From Acidobacteriota bacterium (lineage in GTDB: Bacteria > Acidobacteriota > Thermoanaerobaculia > Gp7-AA8), in the NCBI GenBank assembly GCA_021325515.1, contig JAJPHC010000053.1, positions 1 to 41,141 on the forward strand: DNA of 41,141 nt, in the 5' to 3' direction. The notes beneath the pieces were generated by a model. It was given only the letters and a program-made list of their open reading frames with translations. It did no database searches and had not been told where the DNA came from. Shown piece by piece: positions 3,480-35,575 of this stretch. Within the stretch, counting starts at the first letter, position 1. Every line of letters begins with the position of its first letter. The translations under genes and the position numbers were made by a program.

Positions 3480-3890
3480 GAAGTCGCGCCGTAGAGGCAG
3501 CGGTGCTCCGTGGCGTCCATGTGCGGACGAGACGTCCGCACCCCACTTGGTGTGATGGAGCGCGGACGCCTCGTCCGCGAGCCGCTGCCGTGGAGGCAGC
3601 GGTGCTCTGCGGCCACCATGTGCGGACGAGGCGTCCGCACTCCACTTGGTGTGATGGGGCGCGGACGTCTCGTCCGCGAGCCGCTGCCGTTGAGGCAGCG
3701 GTGCTCTGTGGCCACCATGTGCGGACGAGACGTCCGCACTCCACTTGGTGTGATGGGGCGCGGACGTCTCGTCCGCGGGCCGCTGCCGTCGAGGCAGCGG
3801 TGCTCTGTGGCCACCATGTGCGGACGAGACGTCCGCACCCCACTTCATTTCGTCCCACCATGTGCGGACGAGGCGTCCGCACTCCACTTC
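3480..3890. repeat. 99-bp tandem repeat array, about 3.5 copies, plus a partial unit
   Basis: This fills the 469-bp gap between the divergent DUF885 and PanE-like genes. The phrase GAGGCAGCGGTGCTC recurs at 3494, 3593, 3692 and 3791, exactly 99 bp apart. Each unit carries two hairpin motifs of the type GCGGACG-AGA-CGTCCGC, one as GAGACG/GAGGCG and the other in its inverted form. A further truncated piece lies at about 3856-3890, next to the PanE-like promoter. Because 99 is a multiple of three, long meaningless frames run through it in several phases. There is no spacer variation of the CRISPR type. Confidence 0.9.
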
Positions 3891-3893
3891 GTA

Positions 3894-12603: not shown

Positions 12604-14268
12604 TCACTTCGGCTTCGCCGCCGCAGCCGGCGTGTCGTGCGTCCGCTCGTTCACGGGAATCCACCAGTCGAACTCACCCGGATACCAGAGGAACAGGCCG
12701 TACAGCTTCGACTCCTTCGCGCCATGCACGCGGCGGTTGATCGCCCACTTCACCGATGGCTGCATCGTCCACGTGTACGGCTGATCAGCAGCTACGACCT
12801 CGTGCAGCTTGTGGTAGATGTCGACGCGCTTCGACTGGTTGAACTCTTTCCGCGCCGCGTCGATCAGCGCATCGGCTTCCGGATTCTTGTAGAAGACGAC
12901 GTTCTGTCCGTGCGGCGGCCACTGCGATGAATGCAGCAGAGGATACGGATCGGGGTCGGGATCGAGATCCCACGCGAGATAGGCCGAATCGAAATTGCCG
13001 GCGAGGATCCGCTGCAGCATCGCGGTGCCGTCCATCTGCGAGATCGTCAGCACGACGCCGATCTTCTTCAGCTCCGATTCGAGGAGCTGTGCGAAAGGCA
13101 GCGACGCGGAATTGCCCGACGTGACGAGGAGCTCGATCTTGAGCGGCTTGTGATCCTTGTCGAGCACCCCGTCATGATCCGTATCGAGCCAGCCGATTGC
13201 ATTGAGCTCGCGCTTCGCAGTGAGTGGATCGAATTCGATGACCGGCACGTTCGGGTTGTACGCCCATTGATCGGGCGTGAAGGGCCCGTTCATCGCCCGT
13301 GCCGTCCCGTGGTAGAAGTTGTTGATCATCGACTTCATGTCGACGCATTTCGCGAGGGCGAGCCGCACGCGCTTGTCGGAGAGGATCGGGCCGCGGTTGT
13401 TCCAGGCGATCGTGTTGTACGCCAGATAGTAGAAGCGGCGGAAGTCGAGCATCTTCTGCAGCTCGGGCCGCGTCGAGCTCATCATCCAGACATCGGCACT
13501 GATCTGCGATTCATCGACATCGCCGCGCTTGACGGCGTTCCATGCCGTGTTGTCGTCCACGATCGTCTTGAAGACGACTGTCTTGAGATACGGCTTCTTC
13601 CCCCAGTAGTCTTCGCGGCGTTCGAGGACGATGTCCTTGTCCTCGCTGCGACGGACGAGCCGGTACGGGCCGCTGCCGACTGCATTGAAGTTGAACGCGG
13701 TCTTGAAGTCGCCCTTCGAGTAGACGTGCTCGGGCAGCACCAGCACGTCGTTGAAATGCGCGAGCTGAGGAGCAAACGCTTCCTTGAACGCGACGACGAG
13801 CGTGTGATCGTCGACGGCTCTCGTCTGCGCGATGTCGATCTTGTCGAACTCGCCGGCGACCTGCGAAGCCTCGACTGCCGGATCGACGATCTTCTTCAGC
13901 GTAAAGAGGACGTCGCTCGCACGAACGGGAGTGCCGTCGGAGAACGTCGCCTTCGGATCGAGGTGGAAGGTGTAGATCAACCCGTCCGAAGAGATCTCCC
14001 AGCGGGTCGCCAGCCCGGGAATGCAGCGCAGCTCGCTGTCGAAGTAGACGACCGGCGTGAAGATGTAGTTCATGACGAGCCGGTCGTAGCGGCTCGTTGC
14101 GACGACGGGATTGAGCGTGGCGACTTCGGTGGAGAGCCGCCGGATCAGCGTGCCGCCTTCCTGCGGCGCATTCTCATCGACGACGGCCGGCGAAACCGGC
14201 GTTCTGGCTTCGCGGCTGCACGAGACCGCGAGAATGAACGTGAAGGCGGCGATCAGAGTGCGGCGCAA
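12604..14268 (-). CDS. Extracellular solute-binding protein, family 5 (peptide-type lipoprotein)
   Basis: A 554-residue periplasmic binding protein (SBP_bac_5), the substrate receptor for the two permeases downstream. The start is a TTG at 14268: it gives a short signal sequence with a lipobox-like LAVSC (Cys17). The preceding TATAAT ends nine bases before the TTG. The frame stays open much further upstream only because of the 78-bp repeats. Family features are GGTLIRRLSTEVATLNPVVATSRYD, the LATRWEISSDGLIYTFHLDPKATFSDGTPVRASDV block (family signature) and KRELNAIGW. Peptide or dipeptide is the usual ligand, but family 5 also binds nickel, heme and oligosaccharides. Confidence 0.9.
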   Translation of the reverse strand: MRRTLIAAFTFILAVSCSREARTPVSPAVVDENAPQEGGTLIRRLSTEVATLNPVVATSRYDRLVMNYIFTPVVYFDSELRCIPGLATRWEISSDGLIYTFHLDPKATFSDGTPVRASDVLFTLKKIVDPAVEASQVAGEFDKIDIAQTRAVDDHTLVVAFKEAFAPQLAHFNDVLVLPEHVYSKGDFKTAFNFNAVGSGPYRLVRRSEDKDIVLERREDYWGKKPYLKTVVFKTIVDDNTAWNAVKRGDVDESQISADVWMMSSTRPELQKMLDFRRFYYLAYNTIAWNNRGPILSDKRVRLALAKCVDMKSMINNFYHGTARAMNGPFTPDQWAYNPNVPVIEFDPLTAKRELNAIGWLDTDHDGVLDKDHKPLKIELLVTSGNSASLPFAQLLESELKKIGVVLTISQMDGTAMLQRILAGNFDSAYLAWDLDPDPDPYPLLHSSQWPPHGQNVVFYKNPEADALIDAARKEFNQSKRVDIYHKLHEVVAADQPYTWTMQPSVKWAINRRVHGAKESKLYGLFLWYPGEFDWWIPVNERTHDTPAAAAKPK

Positions 14269-14277
14269 AACGGAACC

Positions 14278-14283
14278 ATTATA
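14278..14283 (-). promoter_or_regulatory. Perfect -10 TATAAT, 9 nt before the binding-protein TTG
   Basis: On the minus strand TATAAT is followed by nine bases and the TTG start at 14268. Transcription would begin close to the start codon, giving a leaderless or nearly leaderless message for the importer operon. The -35 region falls at the edge of the 78-bp repeat array and is not consensus. Confidence 0.55.
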
Positions 14284-14289
14284 GGGGTA

Positions 14290-14710
14290 CTGCGCGAGTG
14301 CGTGCTTCGCACGCGGCGCATGTGCGTGCCTTCGGCATGCGGCGCGGGGCGCTAGGCGCGAGGCGCTGGGCCGAGTGCGTGCTTCGGCACACGGCGCATG
14401 TGCGTGCCTTCGGCACACGGCGCGGGGCGCTAGGCGCTTGGCGCTGGGCCGAGTGCGTGCTTCGGCACACGGCGCATGTGCGTGCCTTCGGCACGCGGCG
14501 CGGGGCGCTAGGCGCGAGGCGCTGGGCCGAGTGCGTGCTTCGCGCGCGGCGCATGTGCGTGCTTCGGCACACGGCGCGAGGCGCTGGGCCGAGTGCGTGC
14601 TTCGCACGCGGCGCACGTGCGCTGCATATTTCGGCTGATCGACATTCTCGTCTTCAGCCGATGCATCACCGTGCGCCCAGCGCCTCGCGCCTCGCGTGCG
14701 AAGCACGCTA
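14290..14710. repeat. 78-bp tandem repeat array with inverted fragment at its end
   Basis: This occupies the 439-bp gap between the binding-protein gene and the 720-residue secreted protein. GAGTGCGTGCTTCG recurs at 14296, 14373, 14451 and 14529 (77-78 bp apart) and at 14591 after a shortened 62-bp unit. Units contain hairpins such as GTGCCTTCGGCAC and GTGCTTCGCAC, plus GGCGCTAGGCGC. A less repetitive segment (14625-14670) is followed by an inverted unit fragment (14675-14708) whose GTAGCGTGCTTCGCACGC abuts and completes the TAG stop of the next gene. Long frames through the array are artefacts. Confidence 0.88.
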
Positions 14711-16980: not shown

Positions 16981-18843
16981 CTAGATTTGCGGCTTGATCT
17001 CGAGATCGATCTTCACGGCACCGTCGACGATGTAGCCGAGCGAGTGCGCCTGCTGGTTGGATGTGAAGTATTTCACCGGTGCCTGCGAACCGTTCGACGT
17101 GTCGGCGGCGACGACCGCGCGAATGCTCGGCGGAAGACTCGGCATGTACACCCCTGCCGTCACCGCCCCTTCGCCGTTCGAGTAAAGGCCGACGGTGAGA
17201 TCCGTCGACGGCTTCAGACGCTCGAGTACCGCAAGCACCTGTTCCAGCGTGCGGGGGTCGGGAGGCACGAGCGTGAAGTCGATCTGATTCGCAACCGTTC
17301 CGCTGCCGACGAGGAGATAGGCATTCCCGGGCAGCTGATTGTCAGGCACCTTCACGTCGAAGGTCTCGACGAACGAGTCGCCGCGGAATGGCTTGAGCAC
17401 CGCGCGGACCTTGACGTTGTCGCCCGGTGCGATGCGGCCGTTCGCGGGGGGAACGATCGAGGCTTCGACGAGCTTCGCGATCTTCAGCGAGTCATCGTGA
17501 TGAAGGTGCAGCTTCACGTTCTCGATCTTCGCATCGCGAAACTCGTTCGACATCAGATAGCCGGAGATCACGGCGAGGTAGGAAGGAATCGCCTGGCGCG
17601 CCTGCGCGCCTGCCCATCCTTCGCGAAGATGAATCGGAGCGAAGCCTTTGAGGTTGATCTCCGCATCCATCATCACGGTCCGTTCGCCGGCCGCCTTCTG
17701 TGCATTCGCAATGACGCTGTCCGCGGCCATCGCCAGCATGAGCGGCGTGAGCTGCGGATGGCGGATCATGTTGACGTGATACGTGCGTGACGGGCCGCTG
17801 CCGTCGAGCGTTAGCTCGATCGGAATCGTGCTGGCCGTCTCGCCGACGACGCCCATGATTCCGTTTGCGCGGTCCTGCTGCAGCGCGCCGACGACCGCGC
17901 CGGTGTTCGCGAATTTGAACGAGGTCGCGAGACTCGGCATGACGCCGACGATCTCCGACTGCGCCATCGGGAAGCTGATCTCGCCCATGTCGAGGAACGG
18001 ATGGCCGAATGCGTAAACGCGATTTCCGTCGGTGTAGGTGACGGTTCCCGTCGCGGCAACGTTGAAGTCGCCATTGAGAAGCACGGCGCCGATCGGATCG
18101 CCGGGCTTGAACGGTTTCGCGTCCTTCGAGGGCACGACCGACGACGAGGACGAGCTCGCGCCGCTCGGCACCGCCACGAAATTCATCGCGTCGATGTACT
18201 TGCCGAACCGCGAAACGGTCTCCGGTGCAAACGAGGAGAGGGAGAGCGGAATCGCGATCGGCTTCGCGCCGCTGATCGTGCTCATCTGCCGCGCGCCGAA
18301 CTCCGCAGCAATCTTGTCGAACACGGCTTCGCTCTTCGCGTTCGCAATCGTGTTGAGGAACTCGGCGCCGCTCATGCGCGGGGAAGCCGCGGGCAGCGTC
18401 GGAGAAAGGCTGCCTGCGCCGGTGTTGTCGGCGATCTTCAGCATCTCTTCGATCGGCGTGATGCCGGCCACCGGCTCCTTCGCGAACTGCCAGGCGAAGG
18501 CCAGAGCTCCGATCACCTTGCCGTCGATGAAGACCGGCGACCCGCTCATCCCGGCGATGACACCGGCGCGCTGCACGACGGGCGAGTCGACTCTGGCCAG
18601 GATCAGATCCTGATTCGGGCCGATGTTATTCAGGACACCGATGATCTCGACGTCGAACTTCTCGATCTTGTTGCCTTCGAAGACCGTCAGGCCGTAGCCC
18701 TTCATCCCCTTGACAACCTGCGAGAGCGGCATCGTTTCCGCCGCCGCGGACACCGAAGTGAGCAGTACGAAACATGCGAAGAGAACTGCAGCTTTGCGGG
18801 ACTGGCGCACGTTGGAAGTAACACTCCTCGGGCGCGGGAACAT
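16981..18843 (-). CDS. Secreted SpoIVB-S55-like protein
   Basis: A 620-residue secreted protein related to the SpoIVB peptidase family S55. After the signal peptide (RKAAVLFACFVLLTSVSAAA) comes a segment very like the end of SpoIVB: KIEKFDVEIIG, then DLILARVDSP and GMSGSPVFIDGKVIGAL (residues 98-114, candidate nucleophile Ser100). A second block, VTYTDGNRVYAFGHPFLDMG, supplies the candidate His281. In SpoIVB the His block precedes the Ser block, so the order here is reversed. A Ser-rich linker lies near 229-240, and the last 250 residues look beta-rich without a known motif. The start could instead be a GTG at 18810. It follows the MacB-type permease by 51 bp. Peptidase activity is inferred only. 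Confidence 0.78.
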   Translation of the reverse strand: MFPRPRSVTSNVRQSRKAAVLFACFVLLTSVSAAAETMPLSQVVKGMKGYGLTVFEGNKIEKFDVEIIGVLNNIGPNQDLILARVDSPVVQRAGVIAGMSGSPVFIDGKVIGALAFAWQFAKEPVAGITPIEEMLKIADNTGAGSLSPTLPAASPRMSGAEFLNTIANAKSEAVFDKIAAEFGARQMSTISGAKPIAIPLSLSSFAPETVSRFGKYIDAMNFVAVPSGASSSSSSVVPSKDAKPFKPGDPIGAVLLNGDFNVAATGTVTYTDGNRVYAFGHPFLDMGEISFPMAQSEIVGVMPSLATSFKFANTGAVVGALQQDRANGIMGVVGETASTIPIELTLDGSGPSRTYHVNMIRHPQLTPLMLAMAADSVIANAQKAAGERTVMMDAEINLKGFAPIHLREGWAGAQARQAIPSYLAVISGYLMSNEFRDAKIENVKLHLHHDDSLKIAKLVEASIVPPANGRIAPGDNVKVRAVLKPFRGDSFVETFDVKVPDNQLPGNAYLLVGSGTVANQIDFTLVPPDPRTLEQVLAVLERLKPSTDLTVGLYSNGEGAVTAGVYMPSLPPSIRAVVAADTSNGSQAPVKYFTSNQQAHSLGYIVDGAVKIDLEIKPQI

Positions 18844-31672: not shown

Positions 31673-31790
31673 TTCATCCTGAGCGAAGCGAAGGATCATC
31701 CATGGCGCGGGGAGAAAGAAATCTTCGAGACCACGGCCTGAAGCACGTCAACCGTGGCGCCTTGGTTGATGCTTCGCTTCGCTCAGCATA
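31673..31790. repeat. 118-bp inverted-repeat element, copy 1 (TGAGCGAAGCGAAG ends)
   Basis: The left end reads TCATCCTGAGCGAAGCGAAG-GATCATCCATGGCGC and the right end is its inverse with small changes (GGCGCCTTGGTTGATGC, then TTCGCTTCGCTCAGCAT). The inner 48 bases differ from copy 2 at 33052-33167. It lies between the secreted protein and the zinc-ribbon gene, and its right end forms part of that gene's promoter. Confidence 0.82.
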
Positions 31791-31794
31791 AACT
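31766..31794 (+). promoter_or_regulatory. Promoter TTGATG-17-TAAACT formed by the repeat end
   Basis: TTGATG (31766-31771) and TAAACT (31789-31794) are exactly 17 bases apart, and the ATG at 31802 follows seven bases later. The -35 and spacer belong to the right arm of the inverted-repeat element; the -10 starts at its last base. Confidence 0.55.
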
Positions 31795-33046: not shown

Positions 33047-33051
33047 CTTCG

Positions 33052-33167
33052 TCATCCTGAGCGAAGCGAAGGATCAGCCAAGGCGCCGGAAGCTTTCGTT
33101 CAGGCGTTGAGCGGTGAACGCACAGTTTCGCGACGCCTTGGTTGATGCTTCGCTTCGCTCAGCATGA
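33052..33167. repeat. 116-bp inverted-repeat element, copy 2 (TGAGCGAAGCGAAG ends)
   Basis: The ends are the same as in copy 1 at 31673-31790: left TCATCCTGAGCGAAGCGAAG then GATCAGCCAAGGCGCC, right inverted GACGCCTTGGTTGATGC then TTCGCTTCGCTCAGCATGA. The central 45 bases are unrelated to copy 1. The right end contains the ATG of mutS2 (AGCATGACACT). Confidence 0.82.
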
Positions 33168-35575
33168 CACTCAGCGAAATCGAATTCGATCGCGTGCTCA
33201 CCCTCGTCGCGATGGAGGCGAAGAGCACGCCGGGCAAGGCCGCGATCGCGCGGCGCAGGCCGCACACGTCGTTCGAGGCGTGCGAACGTGCGCAATCCGA
33301 GCTCGCGGAGATGAGCCTGTTCTATCTGCGCGAGGGGCTGCTGCCGATCGCGGGGCTGACGGACGTCCGGCCGCTGTTCGATCGCGAGAGCGTGCTCGAA
33401 CTCGAGGAGTCGTGGCAACTCGTGCGCGCCGCGCGGGCGACACAGGCCATTCGCGAGACGTTTCTCCGCGGCGAGCTCTACCCTCACCTCATTGCGATCG
33501 CGCGCGACATCCCCGACCTCGGCGAGATGCTCGCGAAGGCTGCAAAGTACTTTACGAAAGATGGCAAGCTGCGCGAGGAAGCATCGGCGGAACTGCGCGC
33601 GATCCGTCAGCGCGTGCAGCAGAAGCGCAACGCGATTCAGCGCGTGTTGAACGACGTGATGAACCGCAGCGTCGACGCGATTCAGGAGCCGCTCATCGTC
33701 ATGCGCGGCGATCGCTTCTGCATCCCCGTCCGCTCCGATCATCGCAACGCCGTGCCGGGAATCCTGCACGAGCGCTCCGGCTCCGGCGCGTCGTTCTTCA
33801 TCGAGCCGCTGCAGGCGGTGGAGCTCAACAACGATCTCGCGGATCTTCTGATCCAGGAGCGCGAGGAGATCGCGCGCATCACACGCTTCATCTCGCAACT
33901 GCTCGTCGACGAAGCAAAGAACGTCATCGCGGCCGCGGACATCGCGGGCGAGTTCGATGCGCTGCAGGCGTGTGCGATCTTCGGCAGCACGGTCAAAGCG
34001 GCGCGGCCGATCTTCAGCACCGGCTGCGAGCTGCGCATCCTCAACGGACGCCATCCGCTGCTCGATGAACGCCTCGCCTCCGCGCGCGAAGAAGCCTTCG
34101 GCGAAGAGCCTTCCTCGCGCAGGGTTGTGCCGATGACGATCGAGCTAGGTGTACGACAGGCGCCCCCGCCTGTCGATGAGGAGGACAGCCGGGGGCAGCT
34201 GTCTTACACGCAGGCTCTCGTCATCAGCGGTCCCAACGCCGGCGGCAAGACGGTCGCTCTCAAGACCGCGGGTCTCCTCGTCGCGATGGCGATGAGCGGC
34301 CTCCCCGTTCCCGCCGACGACGGCACGACGATCCCCATCATCGATGCGATTCACGTGCTGATCGGCGACGACCAGAGCGTGCTCGAACATCTTTCGACGT
34401 TCTCCGCCTACCTCGTGCGGCTGAAGCGCGTGCTCGCGCGCGCCACCAATCGCTCGCTCGTGCTGCTCGATGAGCTCGGATCGGGAACGGATCCCGAGGA
34501 GGGGGCGGCACTCGCGGCGGCGGTCGTGGAGCATCTTCTCGAAACGGGAGCGCTGCTCATCGTGACCACGCACCTTTCGTCGCTCAAGACCTTCGCGGTC
34601 GACGACGGCCGGATTCTCAACGCGTCGATGGAGTTCGATGTCGCGACGGGACAGCCGACGTATCGGATGATCGCCGGCATCCCCGGCCGCAGCCGTGCGA
34701 TCGACGTTGCGCAGATGATCGGTCTCCCCTCGCCCGTCATCGCTGCTGCACGCGCGCGTCTCGGCGACCGCTACGGCGAAACCGACACGCTGCTCGCCAC
34801 GCTGCAGAAGAAGAGGTCGGAAGTGCTCGCGCAGCAGGACGAGGCAGTGCGCCTCAGAAATGCGATCGAGGACGAGCGCAGAGCGATCGCCGAGAAGTCT
34901 GCGCAGCTCGAGAAGGAGAAAGCGCGCCTCGGGACTTCGTATCGAGATGAGCTGGAGAGGCTGCGCGACGATGTCGCCCGCCAGGTGACGAATGAAATTC
35001 GGAATTTGCGCGACATGGATCGCAATGCACGTGCGTCGATCGATGCGAAGCAGGTCGTGCAGACGGTGACCAAGCCCGTGGATCGCGCGATGGAGTTCAT
35101 CCCCGCCGAGCAGCGCGAGATCCACGTGGGCGACAAGGCCGAGCATCGCAAGTTCAAGGTGAGCGGACGCGTCGTTTCCGTCGACGGTAAGAAGGCCGTG
35201 CTCGACGTGAACGGGCGGAAAATGACGGTCGAAGTGCGGGATCTCGTGCCTGTAGGATCGGCGCCATCAACTGTCAAACGGCAGGGACAGGCGGGGGCGG
35301 CTGTCGGGCACAAGGACCTCACGCCTGTGGTCAGCGCAGAGCTCAATCTGATCGGTCAACGTGTTGACGATGCGCTGGAAGAGTCGGACAAGTTCCTCGA
35401 TCGCGCATTGCTCGAAGGAAAGCAGGCCGTACGCATCATCCACGGCTTCGGCACCGGCGCGCTCCGCAAGGCGCTGCGCGATCACCTGCGCAAACATCCT
35501 GCGGTTTCGAGCTGGCGGCCGGGCGACGACAATGAAGGAGGCGATGGTGCGACGATTGCGGTACTCGGTACGTAA
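33164..35575 (+). CDS. mutS2: Endonuclease MutS2
   Basis: MutS2 is a MutS-family ATPase with a C-terminal Smr nuclease domain, known for suppressing recombination and for rescuing collided ribosomes. The 803-residue product has the core/lever regions (SDHRNAVPGILHERSGSGASFFIEP), Walker A SGPNAGGKTVALKT (about residue 354-367), Walker B LVLLDELGSGTDPEEGAALAAA, a long coiled coil (about 540-640), a KOW-like segment (DKAEHRKFKVSGRVVSVDGKKAVLDVNGRKMTVEVRDL) and the Smr domain ending LNLIGQRVDDALEESDKF...HGFGTGALRKALRDHLRKHP. Two palindromic repeat segments are translated in frame (about residues 329-349 and 708-716), one just before Walker A. The ATG is inside an inverted-repeat element. Confidence 0.94.
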   Translation: MTLSEIEFDRVLTLVAMEAKSTPGKAAIARRRPHTSFEACERAQSELAEMSLFYLREGLLPIAGLTDVRPLFDRESVLELEESWQLVRAARATQAIRETFLRGELYPHLIAIARDIPDLGEMLAKAAKYFTKDGKLREEASAELRAIRQRVQQKRNAIQRVLNDVMNRSVDAIQEPLIVMRGDRFCIPVRSDHRNAVPGILHERSGSGASFFIEPLQAVELNNDLADLLIQEREEIARITRFISQLLVDEAKNVIAAADIAGEFDALQACAIFGSTVKAARPIFSTGCELRILNGRHPLLDERLASAREEAFGEEPSSRRVVPMTIELGVRQAPPPVDEEDSRGQLSYTQALVISGPNAGGKTVALKTAGLLVAMAMSGLPVPADDGTTIPIIDAIHVLIGDDQSVLEHLSTFSAYLVRLKRVLARATNRSLVLLDELGSGTDPEEGAALAAAVVEHLLETGALLIVTTHLSSLKTFAVDDGRILNASMEFDVATGQPTYRMIAGIPGRSRAIDVAQMIGLPSPVIAAARARLGDRYGETDTLLATLQKKRSEVLAQQDEAVRLRNAIEDERRAIAEKSAQLEKEKARLGTSYRDELERLRDDVARQVTNEIRNLRDMDRNARASIDAKQVVQTVTKPVDRAMEFIPAEQREIHVGDKAEHRKFKVSGRVVSVDGKKAVLDVNGRKMTVEVRDLVPVGSAPSTVKRQGQAGAAVGHKDLTPVVSAELNLIGQRVDDALEESDKFLDRALLEGKQAVRIIHGFGTGALRKALRDHLRKHPAVSSWRPGDDNEGGDGATIAVLGT
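34149..34209. repeat. 61-bp inverted repeat inside mutS2, translated in frame
   Basis: GTGTACGACAGGCGCCCCCG (34149-) and its partner, read inverted from 34209 as GTGTAAGACAGCTGCCCCCG, flank a 9-bp centre. It encodes roughly GVRQAPPPVDEEDSRGQLSYT, with no counterpart I know in other MutS2 proteins, just before the strand leading to Walker A. The GTGTAAGACA start is shared with the intergenic palindrome at 25066-25090. Confidence 0.8.
35286..35311. repeat. Half-copy of the same repeat, second site in mutS2
   Basis: GACAGGCGGGGGCGGCTGTC then GGGCAC is the inverse-oriented equivalent of one arm of the 34149-34209 repeat. It is translated as part of GQAGAAVGH in the linker between the KOW-like segment and the Smr domain. 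Confidence 0.7.

Follow-up and report, generated by a model that had tools for sequence, protein, structure and literature searches.

The mutS2 gene and its inverted repeat

The window, meaning the whole analysed stretch of 41,141 bp from an Acidobacteriota bacterium, carries a mutS2 gene whose 803-residue product matched the mutS2 equivalog model of NCBIfam with 698.7 bits against a cut-off of 400. A 61-bp inverted repeat lies within this gene, and the features concerned are as follows:

33164..35575, +, mutS2, uninterrupted ORF of 803 aa with MutS domain V, MSSS SH3 and Smr domain
34133..34147, +, beta strand preceding the insert, residues 324-328 (AlphaFold2 model)
34149..34209, +, REPIN, a head-to-head REP doublet of 61 bp, translated as VRQAPPPVDEEDSRGQLSYT, net gain of 17 residues relative to relatives
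34149..34174, +, left REP arm, 25 of 26 positions identical to the consensus GTGTAGGACAGGCGCCCYCGCCTGTC, tag changed from GTAG to GTAC
34175..34183, no strand, REPIN spacer of 9 bp, length 0 mod 3
34184..34209, -, right REP arm with 4 mismatches, tag changed from GTAG to GTAA
34214..34228, +, beta strand running into Walker A, residues 351-355 (AlphaFold2 model)
34229..34252, +, Walker A motif GPNAGGKT, residues 356-363, intact
35286..35311, -, third REP unit with 4 mismatches, carrying GCCC where the consensus has GTAG, in the linker that joins the SH3 and Smr domains
35342..35563, +, Smr domain, residues 727-800, intact

The repeat is laid out as GTGTACGACAGGCGCCCCCGCCTGTC - GATGAGGAG - GACAGCCGGGGGCAGCTGTCTTACAC, and this imperfect inverted repeat, folded as single-stranded DNA with short flanks, reached -23.3 kcal/mol against -13.9 +/- 2.4 for shuffled sequences (z -3.9), with none of 200 shuffles equally stable. 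The preliminary description had placed a 61-bp inverted repeat at exactly 34149-34209, translated in frame just before the Walker A strand, and both points were borne out, the former by the sequence and its fold and the latter by the intact ORF, in which the frame is open throughout and VRQAPPPVDEEDSRGQLSYT stops just ahead of that strand. The family has three units in the window (34155, 34184 and 35286), all of them within mutS2, with 0.02 expected by chance, and GTAG is absent from all three (GTAC, GTAA and GCCC instead). The third unit brings almost no net length change relative to relatives.

Other repeats were also observed in the window. A third inverted-repeat family, TCATCCTGAGCGAAGCGAAGGATC, is represented by copies at 31673-31792 and 33051-33168; 21 matches of this family were found in 2.39 Mb, none of them wholly inside genes, and since the ATG at 33164 falls in the last arm of the 33051-33168 copy, the repeat appears to supply the mutS2 start codon. 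These intergenic neighbours had been assigned to the same family as the mutS2 repeat, which does not hold within the window, although intergenic copies of the mutS2 family do abound elsewhere in the genome. Tandem repeats of 99 bp containing the second REP family of the genome, GTGCGGACGAGRCGTCCGCAC, which also flanks the RAYT-type locus L007, extend over 3488-3892 upstream of a DUF885 gene, and this array is probably 5' non-coding, as in the called ORF the DUF885 domain does not begin until residue 203. A family 5 solute-binding protein gene (12604-14418, -) has tandem repeats of 78 bp (GCACGCGGCGCATGTGCGTGCC...) at its 5' end, at 14295-14621.

Insertion relative to other MutS2 proteins

In 21 aligned Acidobacteriota MutS2 rows, spanning from the same family to the same class, the stretch from a leucine to 'ALVISGPNAGGKT' counts 5 residues, against 22 here (net +17), and the corresponding DNA measures 54 bases in every relative shown and is 51 bases longer in the window mutS2. 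The insert is missing from about 50 other MutS2 proteins aligned, and a wider alignment including Firmicutes MutS2 gave a consensus without it; the same residues, looked for in orthologues of near and distant relatives, were present in none of them. The 61-bp repeat is a lineage-specific insertion, as had been suspected, and takes the place of a portion of a beta-turn of 5 residues. With the loss of about 10 bp from this ancestral turn, the reading frame is kept (61-10=51) and the gene gains 51 bp, or 17 residues, so that the insertion foreseen in the preliminary description stands, whereas its size of about 20 residues was too large.

The surface loop beside the ATPase core that had been envisaged is what the AlphaFold2 model predicts (32 sequences, mean pLDDT 82), in which residues 331-350 form a coil with a pLDDT of 58-63 flanked by two confident strands, while the third REP stretch at 35286-35311 falls in a disordered linker with a pLDDT near 32. 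On the solved B. subtilis MutS2 (8QPP, 7QV3), the insert falls in the gap between two aligned blocks. The insert is probably an extra flexible and harmless loop, and MutS2 would then be functionally indifferent to it.

The REP family and a REP-flanked RAYT gene in the genome

The REP scan covered 2.39 Mb, 44% of the window genome (G000), with genes called by a simple in-house hexamer model; a minority of the sampled blocks had been picked for listed REPs, which affects density and not frame. In this sample the family consensus GTGTAGGACAGGCGCCCYCGCCTGTC consists of GTAG followed by a near-perfect palindrome, and 37 exact copies were found when it was written as GT-GTAG-GACAGGCGCCCYCGCCTGTC. 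Allowing up to 2 mismatches to the 26-mer, 76 matches were obtained and none in the reversed-sequence control, where no match came under 7 mismatches, and the 20-base core occurs at 196 sites genome-wide against 9 for a control pattern. The matches form 56 elements, 22 of them head-to-head (+-) doublets whose arms are about 1 to 32 bp apart; 33 elements lie between genes or at gene ends, though 90% of the sequence is coding, and the other 23 lie wholly within called genes. A 24-mer pattern matched 148 times in the window genome and, among 60 relatives, once in each of two and never in the other 58; by this pattern the family is limited to the window genome among the 61 compared.

Seven Y1_Tnp matches were detected in the window genome, one of which is surrounded by inverted copies of exactly the mutS2-family REP, at 18687(+), 19233(-) and 19270(-):

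G000:C11:18713-19174, -, RAYT gene flanked by REPs (NCBIfam and structure match)

This gene scored 99.4 bits against the NCBIfam model REP_Tyr_transpos NF047646 (cut-off 80), resembles the solved TnpA-REP 4ER8 and has its TAG stop codon at a REP edge. A second RAYT-type locus, L007 (G000:C54:67915), is flanked by a different REP, GTGCGGACGCCTCGTCCGCAC; REP families thus appear to be matched to RAYTs in line with the REPtron model, and a RAYT (HUH tyrosine transposase) is presumably responsible for the spread of the mutS2 family. Four features reported for GTAG REPs and REPINs were found, namely a 20-50 nt palindrome preceded by GTAG, a high copy number mainly outside genes, foldable doublets and a REP-flanked RAYT gene, and the mutS2 insert is a degenerate GTAG-type REPIN.

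Reading frame of the intragenic copies

Among the intragenic units with up to 2 mismatches, 21 of 22 are translated in one frame, whichever the orientation of the REP, giving the peptides (V)GQAP(S/P)PV or GQAGAPVLH. All 15 independent insertions obey this frame rule in at least their better arm (p 3e-5 against an even use of the two open frames), and spacers of 1 mod 3, which set both arms in the good frame, were observed in 6 of 8 intragenic REPINs versus 4 of 19 other REPINs (p 0.025). The frame carrying the stop, GTG TAG, is used only at gene 3' ends, as a stop codon: where an element overlaps a gene in part, the gene ends inside the REP in 17 of 17 cases, mostly on the TAG of GTGTAG. Examples of genes ending within a REP are found at C2:179605-179630 and C9:27337-27426. 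The third frame (CRTGALAC / TGGGACPT) is open and bears cysteine, and its one good unit is the second arm of the REPIN at C61:117570. Two apparent exceptions to the frame rule, C61:63888 and C61:116514, are weak, with 4 mismatches each, and were judged chance matches.

The mutS2 REPIN follows the rule in its left arm only, read as V-R-Q-A-P-P-P-V, and since its spacer is 9 bp long (0 mod 3) the right arm is in another frame (D-S-R-G-Q-L-S-Y-T), of which it is the sole intragenic unit in the sample; the mutS2 copy is therefore an imperfect example, while the third mutS2 unit also keeps the common frame (GQAGAAVGH). A single-frame lock was sought in the second REP family of the genome, GTGCGGACGYCTCGTCCGCAC, and its frames were mixed: two are used within genes and the Cys-bearing frame is rare.

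Host genes and fate of the copies

A scan of other coding genes for the same repeat had been suggested, and at least 15 independent in-frame insertions were found, the family being present in more than a dozen housekeeping genes besides mutS2. By Pfam the hosts are E2 acyltransferase, NuoG, an Fe-S oxidoreductase subunit, UvrA, Obg, aconitase, a nitrate reductase beta-type protein, DnaE, DsbD, a class A PBP, an HI0933-type flavoprotein, 2-oxoacid dehydrogenase E1, an M28 peptidase and pyruvate:ferredoxin oxidoreductase (PFOR). Insertions lie outside Pfam domains in 16 of 17 cases versus 7 expected from a domain cover partly estimated by hand (p about 1e-6), and copies sit between the domains of UvrA, DnaE, Obg, NuoG and PFOR. 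The linkers of UvrA and DnaE vary in all relatives and are of ordinary length here, and as the own linker length is near that of the relatives at these two sites and at the second MutS2 site, replacement instead of clean insertion is possible there. In PFOR, in-frame expansion with an 18-bp unit has turned the insert into a series of GQAWAP repeats and made it about 22 residues longer than in relatives. In the DnaE of two other genera the corresponding linker also holds a REPIN, read in this frame as well and resembling in its loop the REP family of the genome concerned; the DnaE linker may be either a hot spot struck several times or the seat of an old insertion rewritten in place. The loci are:

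L124:4849-8490 = G000:C61:164849-168490, -, PFOR gene with expanded REP insert
L293 near 4290, DnaE REPIN of another genus, GQAGLPVLH
L296 near 2195, DnaE REPIN of another genus, GQAGKPVLH

The intragenic units have diverged further from the consensus, with 2.1 mean mismatches versus 0.8 for the others, and GTAG is intact in 10 of 32 intragenic versus 41 of 59 other units (p 8e-4), a loss that may also stem from codon choice. No purifying selection on the inserted peptide was seen (about 48 nonsynonymous versus 18 synonymous changes), and with this near-neutral ratio the peptide is not visibly conserved. The intragenic inserts look like tolerated passengers, probably immobilised, and not like conserved functional peptides.

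Proposed explanation and its alternatives

We consider it highly probable that the mutS2 insert is a decayed GTAG REPIN and that the intragenic survivors of its family were sieved for frame, loop or linker position and a tolerated peptide. A RAYT would spread REPINs to many landing sites, of which those surviving within genes would be the ones that keep the frame and lie in a loop or interdomain linker, the surviving frame yielding a flexible peptide rich in Ala, Pro, Gly and Gln (GQAP[S/P]PV...GQAGAPVLH), with the TAG frame retained solely at gene 3' ends and the Cys frame (CRTGALAC) almost absent. At mutS2 the element would have hit the beta-turn before the Walker A strand, where the loss of about 10 bp of target restored the frame and left a flexible loop, and since then the GTAG of both arms has disappeared from the copy, which is probably immobile. 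Such a countable rule (one frame, linkers only, the stop frame at gene ends, the tag lost) suggests selection sieving mobile DNA in proteins; the inserts would reveal which loops and linkers of core enzymes are tolerant, and any REP-rich genome offers a test of the frame rule.

The frame bias could instead arise from insertion chemistry, with the RAYT preferring a target at one codon position of a GC-rich genome, as IS200/IS605-type enzymes and TnpA-REP recognise particular sequences for cleavage (CT/CA; PMC8266576) and base use in GC-rich codons depends strongly on position. We regard this as improbable: single REPs of both orientations share the codon phase, the bases beside the tail vary (G, A, C), spacer length is phased in genes and not elsewhere, and the second REP family uses two frames and again largely avoids the Cys-bearing one. 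Since orientation is irrelevant and spacers are phased too, we infer that selection against certain peptides explains the bias better than target preference. An equally small chance is given to positive selection, by which inserts were adopted as useful linkers altering the flexibility or regulation of MutS2, DnaE, UvrA and others, comparable to the mutator idea of Di Nocera et al. Replication and repair genes do recur (UvrA, DnaE and MutS2 here; uvrA, dnaE2 and recBCD in PMC3733652), MutS2 holds two insertions, the PFOR insert has expanded in frame, and in three genera the same linker of DnaE contains a REP, each of the genus's own type; the targets, however, also cover respiration, cell wall, redox and peptidases, the intragenic copies diverge at a near-neutral ratio, and neutral inserts are expected in linkers too. 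A somewhat better, though still doubtful, idea is that the REP itself is shaped for translatability, its stem and tail encoding, on either strand and in one frame, a harmless linker peptide (GQAP.PV / GQAG.PVLH), so that a mobile element of a gene-dense genome could also live inside genes. Sister families keep this peptide frame with a changed loop, and three genera share the DnaE linker as a site for REPs of their own types.

Two further readings appear extremely unlikely. The presence of the insert in a single genome would fit an ancestral feature of MutS2 that the relatives have lost, or an error of assembly, but aligned orthologues of the family, the class and Firmicutes are without the insert, and point changes separate the mutS2 copy from every other copy found in the genome, so it is no misplaced duplicate of any of these. 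Descent from a Rickettsia palindromic element (RPE) acquired horizontally can be given hardly any weight either. The outcome is the same, a palindrome in frame in conserved genes, and to this extent the likeness drawn in the preliminary description stands, but kinship does not, in view of the GTAG tag, the sequence, the 26-nt units and the REP-flanked RAYT gene. R. conorii RPE-4 and RPE-6 belong to the CGTC type, with which no transposase gene is associated (PMC3733652), and with GTAG and a RAYT present here, kinship was rejected on these described features. Two genomes of this bacterial family have sister families that differ in the loop, which points to vertical descent and against a horizontal RPE origin. 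The preferred reading remains that of a GTAG REPIN sieved by selection.

Comparison with known systems

With RPEs (Ogata et al. 2000, as cited in PMC10969869), the present family shares in-frame palindromic mobile DNA in many conserved genes with a recurrent peptide, and its at least 15 independent in-frame insertions in genes of unrelated proteins represent shared behaviour and not kinship. RPEs are larger, about 150 bp according to that review, whereas the window family consists of 26-nt GTAG units with a RAYT and, unlike RPEs, lies mostly at or between gene ends.

Within the bacterial family of the window genome, the sister families of G008 and G009 share the tail and stem GTGTAGGACAGGC...GCCTGTC and have a REPIN in the same DnaE linker and reading frame, their loop being mainly TTTCCA against GCCCYC in the window family; a pattern that allowed any loop gave 22 exact matches in G008 and 38 in G009.

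The placement with GTAG REPs and REPINs follows from the GTAG tag, the sequence, the unit length and the REP-flanked RAYT gene. The literature searched, which consisted of openly accessible main texts, yielded no description of intragenic REPs being held to a single frame, nor of the linker rule or tag decay; REP-encoded residues are listed in the supplements of PMC3733652. In particular, neither the one-frame lock nor the mostly lost GTAG was found in the main text of PMC3733652, and MutS does not occur in its text. The window family further differs from the REPs of that study in its Acidobacteriota host and its own stem and loop sequence. Common to both (PMC3733652, PMC8266576) are GTAG beside a short palindrome, head-to-head dimers, a high copy number and a RAYT between inverted REPs, and, in PMC3733652, copies wholly inside ORFs encoding 20-30 aa, replication and repair targets, and neighbouring ORFs that use the TAG of the REP as stop codon. 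The earlier remark that such insertions are not expected in this type of bacterium was too strong, as intragenic GTAG REPs are known in Verrucomicrobia (Opitutus terrae) and several Proteobacteria, with Thauera and Thioalkalivibrio among the hosts (Di Nocera et al. 2013, PMC3733652). The mutS2 insert itself therefore follows a known pattern, and extends the invasion of coding sequences by REPs to Acidobacteriota and to MutS2.
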